From Phycisphaerales bacterium (lineage in GTDB: Bacteria; Planctomycetota; Phycisphaerae; Phycisphaerales; UBA5793), in contig JADZAS010000013.1 of NCBI GenBank assembly GCA_020852515.1, positions 62,001 through 126,000 of the forward strand: a stretch of 64,000 nucleotides of DNA, in the 5' to 3' direction. Both the position numbers and the translations under genes were made by a program. Under the pieces are notes generated by a model. It had not been told where the DNA came from. It was given only the letters and a program-made list of their open reading frames with translations, and did no database searches. Numbering within the stretch: position 1 is the stretch's first letter; every line of letters starts with the position of its first letter. This document shows, in pieces, positions 11,538 to 15,878 of this stretch.

Positions 11538-12071
11538 TTACGCCACCTCCACCGCCACGCGAACGTGGCTGGATCGTTTCATAATCGGGTGCGCCCGCCC
11601 GCGGTCCTTGGGCTGGAAGCGCTTCATCGTCGGGCCTTCATCGACGCGCGACTCGCTCACGACCAGGCGGCTGATGTCCGCCTCGTTCTCTTCCGCACAA
11701 GCGATGGCCGACTCGAGCGCCTTGCGGACGAACACGGCGGCCCGCTTCTTGCTGAACTTGAGCATCGTCAGCGCCGTGTCGATGTCGCGGCCGCGGATGA
11801 GATCAGACACGAGCCTGATCTTGCGCGGCGAGATGCGGGCCCACTTGTGCGCGCCGTCGAAGCACACGATGTCGCTGACGGGCACGTTGAGCGCGGCGGC
11901 AAGCGATCGGAGGTCTTCGCGCCTGGGCGCGGGCTTGAAGTTGCCCTTGCTCCAGTTGCGCAGCGCCGAGGTCGCGTTGATGCCGGGCCGCTTGATCTCG
12001 GAGGCGAGATCTTCGGGCTTCATACCGGCCGCCTTGATCCGGGCATTGAACTTGGATGCATTGAGATTCAT
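11538..12071 (-). CDS. rplV: Ribosomal protein L22 (uL22) with N-terminal helix-turn-helix domain
   Basis: This protein has 177 residues, against the usual 110-120. Residues about 75-177 are a full L22 core ([54 protein letters not shown]), which lines the exit tunnel. Residues about 5-71 form an extra domain that reads like a Cro/XRE-type helix-turn-helix: [20 protein letters not shown], then SALRNWSKG, then [19 protein letters not shown]. The frame is continuous and has the operon's codon use, and the only Met after the start lies inside the extra domain, so a shorter ATG-started L22 is not available. Neighbours are rpsS (40 bp upstream) and rpsC (2 bp downstream). Confidence 0.93.
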
Positions 12072-12111
12072 GGTGCGTCAACCTCTTGGCAAACCGCGGT
12101 GCGCGGGGTGC

Positions 12112-15804: not shown

Positions 15805-15832
15805 AGTATATGGTTGGTCCTGAGCCGGTCAA
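15805..15832 (-). promoter_or_regulatory. Sigma-70 type promoter of the S10-spc operon
   Basis: On the minus strand TTGACC (15832-15827) is followed, after 16 bp, by TATACT (15810-15805). Both hexamers are near consensus, which is rare in this GC-rich window. The predicted start near 15798 gives a leader of about 145 nt before rpsJ. No other promoter of this quality was seen inside the operon. Confidence 0.65.
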
Positions 15833-15878
15833 CTCAGGCAAAGTCCCGCTCGAGGCTCCCGGCGCTGCGTCGCTCCAT

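Follow-up and report, generated by a model that had tools for sequence, protein, structure and literature searches.

The window, a stretch of 64,000 nucleotides from a contig of a Phycisphaerales bacterium, carries on its minus strand a planctomycete S10-spc ribosomal operon, in which rplV, the gene for ribosomal protein L22 (uL22), is flanked by rpsS and rpsC. This rplV is the only match in the window's genome. Residues 76–175 of its 177-residue product match Pfam Ribosomal_L22 (PF00237; E = 1e-35, 122.5 bits against a cut-off of 28), and the product also matches TIGR01044 (E = 4.6e-34, 116.8 bits against a cut-off of 73.65). The L22 part of the predicted structure matches solved L22 chains in Foldseek. 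In our own alignment with the E. coli sequence, residue 69 presumably corresponds to residue 1 of E. coli L22; L22 itself thus appears complete, since the N-terminal domain stops where the E. coli protein starts. The L22 hairpin loop (residues 149–163 of the window's protein) differs little between Phycisphaerae with and without the extension and is unlike that of E. coli (MKRIMPRAKGRADRI). Elsewhere in the window, L24 (8829–9320, minus strand, 163 amino acids) has a tail of roughly 60 residues that is rich in Lys and Ala and histone-H1-like in composition.

Table 1. Features of the rplV locus and of the S10 leaders (window coordinates unless a locus is named).
Feature	Position	Strand	Basis
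rplV, HTH-L22 fusion protein, 177 residues	11538..12071	-	ORF, ATG start; Pfam and NCBIfam L22
N-terminal domain of predicted Cro/C1 (XRE) fold, residues 1-71	11859..12071	-	AlphaFold2, Foldseek, Pfam HTH_31/HTH_3 in relatives, conservation
Helix 1, residues 5-15	12027..12059	-	DSSP on model
Helix 2, residues 19-25	11997..12017	-	DSSP on model
Helix 3 ('recognition' helix), residues 33-41, invariant N39-W40	11949..11975	-	DSSP on model; 76/76 sequences
Helix 4, residues 51-61	11889..11921	-	DSSP on model
Short helix 5, residues 65-68	11868..11879	-	DSSP on isolated-domain model
Complete uL22 core, residues 72-177	11541..11858	-	PF00237, TIGR01044, Foldseek to solved L22 chains
Shine-Dalgarno-like AGAGGT ahead of rplV ATG	12081..12086	-	Sequence; SD-like sequence also at the same start in extended relatives
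Inverted repeat CCTGAG-TTGACCGG-CTCAGG (6+6 bp, N8) around S10 -35 box	15819-15838		
RNA element, example	L207:1402-1461	+	
RNA element, example	L203:586-641	-	

By prediction and homology, residues 1–71 would form a compact five-helix domain of the Cro/C1 (XRE) type, which is otherwise typical of phage repressors. AlphaFold2, run on the family alignment, gave a mean pLDDT of 90.3 for the full protein and placed the domain directly ahead of an L22 strand (residues 69–78) into which it passes without a break; the domain modelled in isolation reached a pLDDT of 85.5. Compared with the PDB, this isolated domain matched the 434 repressor, P22 c2, 434 Cro, C.Csp231I and SinR with TM scores of 0.59–0.73 and probabilities of about 1.0, and almost all of the top matches were Cro/C1 proteins or contained such a domain. 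Among the matches were ribosome-bound Mbf1 (9f9s_CN) and EDF1 (7o81_AU). The Foldseek E-values were weak (0.05–0.3), which we attribute to the small size of the domain. Profile searches gave weak matches of HTH_3 (E = 0.008) and HTH_26 (E = 0.019) to residues 11–69 of the isolated extension, and the window's protein falls below the Pfam gathering threshold (14–17 bits for HTH_3 against 23). Among 27 extended relatives, HTH_31 matched 17 (best E = 5.8e-6), HTH_26 eight (best 1.5e-4) and HTH_3 six (best 3.9e-4). Our assignment of the predicted fold therefore leans on the uniformity of the structural matches and on the independent profile evidence, not on E-values. A likeness to the N terminus of PheRS-beta and to nonstructural RNA-binding protein 34, seen in a PDB sequence search, was partial and low-scoring and was judged to be chance. 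The initial annotation had proposed from sequence a Cro/XRE-type helix-turn-helix fused to a normal L22. The model, the fold search and the Pfam helix-turn-helix profiles in relatives agree with that proposal and with the limits it gave for the domain (about residues 5–71); the two parts were placed as in Table 1.

In close pairs of extended genes dN/dS was 0.10–0.40 for the domain and 0–0.13 for the L22 core. The N-terminal domain is thus under purifying selection, and the extension is translated and maintained at the protein level. The frame was open up to an equivalent ATG or GTG in all 26 extended relatives taken from the genome collection, and a purine-rich SD-like sequence preceded the upstream start in 26 of the 26 extended homologues listed.

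Whether L22 is extended elsewhere in the Planctomycetota had been left by the initial annotation as a check, and the extension does recur. We searched 397 genomes of the class Phycisphaerae, 379 of which gave an L22 match, and counted by hand, among the matches listed, at least 136 with the extension. These belong to two separate clades. Clade 1 consists of two families of the window's order, f1 and f2, in which, among the matches listed, every genome has the fusion (4/4 and 44/44). The contig WYBR01000096.1 carries an rplV that is 86% identical to that of the window. Clade 2 is a Sedimentisphaerales-like group. Families f12, f17, f19, f22, f23, f25 and f26 account for at least 88 extended genomes among the matches listed. 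In f3, f4 and f5, sister families within the window's order, the genomes whose rplV was read have ordinary L22s of about 109–115 residues; two f4 genomes (G243 and G193) have a non-extended rplV, and a third (G149) has a low profile score that, as a score only, resembles theirs.

The domain appears to be confined to L22. A profile of it returned 24 matches in 392 genomes of the phylum, of which 22 were rplV, all in Phycisphaerae. The other two were weak and resembled a Cas3-like helicase and a HAD-like hydrolase, so that they were set aside as chance, and no free-standing copy of the domain was found in this sample. A profile built from clade 1 recovered clade 2 with E-values down to 6e-20 and found no other XRE protein in the same 392 genomes. 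The domains of the two clades share 33% mean identity and the same three invariant residues. In a tree of the neighbouring genes (L2, S19, S3 and L16) the extended genomes split into two groups, and their union as one clade was rejected (AU p = 1.7e-38). In the L22-core tree, clade 1 groups with its non-extended order mates (98/87), and the corresponding AU test (p = 0.185), taken alone, is compatible with a single clade of extended genomes. Transfer of the whole rplV between the clades is not favoured, given the neighbour-gene test and the placement of the clade 1 core. On these sequence comparisons, two independent fusions seem less likely than one origin with later losses or than transfer of the segment that encodes the domain.

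Conservation within the domain is uneven. N39, W40 and P47 are identical in all 76 extended sequences from both clades. Positions that are invariant, or nearly so, are for the most part structural ones of the Cro/C1 fold (leucine L22, A23, W40, G43, P47 and A58), with N39 in addition, and in clade 1 the loop between helices 3 and 4 is conserved as R-D-H-P-R-C. The average charge of the domain is positive (+5.7 and +3.2), with some clade 2 members near zero or negative (range −4 to +7). In lambda-type repressors helix 2 opens with a Gln that contacts the DNA backbone. The equivalent position 19 is V, R, A or P in clade 1 and V, L, A or I in clade 2, and the helix 3 positions expected to read bases vary among the extended sequences. 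The turn between helices 2 and 3 is enlarged (55 residues aligned to 49 HTH_3 positions); its loop has seven residues in the model and is about three residues longer in most f2 members. The varying contact positions, the missing helix 2 Gln and the enlarged turn argue against conserved sequence-specific reading of DNA.

We consider it reasonably likely that the domain is a permanent accessory module of the ribosome, docked at the surface of the 50S subunit on rRNA or on a protein. uL22 is an essential protein of the large subunit, with its globular part at the surface near the tunnel exit, so each ribosome of these bacteria should bear a single copy of the domain near that exit. In some ancestral member of the Phycisphaerae, a Cro/C1-type domain would have been joined in frame to an otherwise ordinary uL22, directly at its first residue, and then retained as a fixed part of the ribosome, attached through the extended first strand of L22. 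There it may hold on to 23S rRNA close by or to an adjacent protein, in the way that Mbf1/EDF1 grips 18S rRNA with its Cro/C1 domain, and this docking could stabilize assembly or help to position something at the tunnel exit. Membership of uL22 implies that the domain is located on the ribosome, not the contact; from the evidence above we infer the location, the docking and its benefit. Points counted for docking include the upstream start shared by relatives, the confident predicted fold with Mbf1 and EDF1 among its matches, the spread over at least 136 genomes, the invariance of N39, W40 and P47, purifying selection, the restriction of a single-copy domain to L22 and the positive mean charge. 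Against it stand the dispensability of the domain for ribosomes in general, its absence from the closely related f3, f4 and f5, and the neutral or negative charge of some clade 2 members. Also counted against it is a comparison of 23S rRNA from seven extended and nine non-extended genomes, which revealed no indel or nucleotide that separates the groups. A co-evolved 23S feature was therefore discarded, and the rRNA partner, if there is one, is probably an ordinary conserved helix. One 23S rRNA gene (L148, genome G018) contains about 285 extra bases at E. coli numbering 1869–1877, an insertion or intron-like element.

Cro/C1 domains usually act as repressors that bind DNA, and autoregulation is common among ribosomal protein operons; both facts speak for an alternative in which unassembled HTH-L22 binds the promoter or leader of the S10 operon and represses its own synthesis. 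The promoter region offers a possible site: the −35 box (TTGACC, with TATACT at −10) sits in an inverted repeat (Table 1) of which the window's genome has only one further copy. The repeat is kept in two genomes of the same genus (L170 and L172, the latter with a compensatory change) but is broken in a third (L171) and was not seen in the f2 leaders that were read, which confines it to three of four same-genus genomes. A regulon was rejected, as the genome has only two sites.

Clade 2 offers a different potential target. Its S10 leaders begin, just downstream of the promoter and 200–410 nt before rpsJ, with a 60-nt structured RNA element of consensus cAGCCGnAGCGAGC-[stem]-GCGunnCGAGUUGGgCUg. 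It was found in 13 of 15 loci, the S10 leaders of clade 2 genomes L193–L207, with compensatory changes at nine of 15 predicted pairs and one copy per genome in five single-contig genomes. It had no match in Rfam 15 and is a candidate for a new ribosomal-protein leader. In the leaders compared, it was absent from f12, from the window's clade (f1 and f2) and from non-extended genomes, so that no one target accompanies the domain throughout. Comparison of the S10 leaders of extended genomes yielded no operator common to them. Since neither repeat nor RNA leader tracks the domain in all extended genomes, and the longer helix 2–3 turn, the V, A, R, P or L in place of the helix 2 Gln and the variable base-reading positions of helix 3 also count against it, autoregulation by this domain is not favoured, and we regard it as unlikely. 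Of the two functions offered by the initial annotation, an extra ribosome- or rRNA-binding element fits better with N39-W40-P47, the single L22-only copy and the Mbf1/EDF1 precedent; the autoregulator is little supported, its DNA-reading features being eroded and a shared operator lacking. Docking is thus favoured over a DNA-binding autoregulator.

The domain might instead have lost nucleic-acid binding and serve as a protein-docking surface (a hub for exit-site factors or the membrane) or as an aid to the folding or assembly of L22 (a cis chaperone). The N-terminal position near the tunnel exit would suit such a role, as would the pattern in which mostly core positions are invariant and surface positions of helix 3 vary. 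Enzymes such as HppE among the fold matches indicate that Cro/C1-type domains are also found in non-regulatory proteins. In contrast, N39 is invariant though not a usual core position, and this residue together with the conserved clade 1 loop suggests one specific contact; we find a pure recruitment role rather unlikely. A bifunctional uL22, whose repressor-type domain would sense or control some process at the tunnel exit or on nucleic acid of the S10 operon and so couple the state of the ribosome to gene expression while on the ribosome, is in our view quite unlikely. Very improbable is a mis-annotated start, in which translation would begin at about residue 69–74 and the upstream frame would be leader sequence with a chance similarity: an in-frame GTG at codon 69 would yield a normal 109-residue L22, but it has no SD-like sequence ahead of it, 36 of 76 extended sequences have no ATG, GTG or TTG at residues 64–79, a junction start codon with an SD-like sequence occurs in only five of the 76, and the extension has a dN/dS well below 1, invariant residues and a confident predicted fold. 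With it falls the start near residue 74 that the initial annotation had set against its own reading, the SD-like sequence lying at the upstream start. An assembly artefact or a misbinned contig is ruled out because more than 130 genomes have the fusion, some of them assembled as single-contig chromosomes.

On the docking interpretation, a complete repressor-type domain would have become a fixed part of a highly conserved machine in two bacterial clades and not in their sister lineages, and the extended lineages and their non-extended sisters provide a clean comparative system for lineage-specific extensions of ribosomal proteins. We found no earlier description of an L22/uL22 with a helix-turn-helix fusion in the open-access literature. 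The L22-fused domain shares with other Cro/C1 (XRE) domains (Pfam HTH_3, HTH_26 and HTH_31) the predicted five-helix fold, the L-A motif of helix 2, the motif I/V-x-x-W-x-x-G...P after helix 3 and L-A-x-x-L-G-V at the end of helix 4. It differs from them in its longer helix 2–3 turn, a helix 2 without the starting Gln, variable contact positions, fusion to a ribosomal protein and the lack of a known dimer partner.

Extensions of bacterial ribosomal proteins are common and mostly without known function; in Mycoplasma pneumoniae they are mostly predicted to be disordered, with secondary structure in those of S6, L22 and L29 (PMC9534751). The M. pneumoniae L22 and the NCBIfam model PRK12279, which is named 'L22/unknown domain fusion', resemble the Phycisphaerae protein in being uL22s with a lineage-specific extension, whereas the Phycisphaerae L22 has a complete, recognizable domain at its N terminus. 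The closest functional parallel is eukaryotic and archaeal Mbf1/EDF1, a ribosome-associated Cro/C1 domain whose helix-turn-helix is sandwiched between helices h16 and h33 of 18S rRNA (PMC7486125); the fold match is consistent with a comparable contact of the L22 domain. Mbf1 acts as a separate factor, bound to the small subunit where the mRNA enters, and has an N-terminal MBF1 domain of its own. In contrast, the L22 domain is covalently part of a 50S protein, has neither an N-terminal MBF1 nor a zinc-ribbon domain, and is preceded by nothing in its reading frame. The fusion would thus be another route, besides Mbf1, by which a Cro/C1 domain has been brought onto the ribosome.
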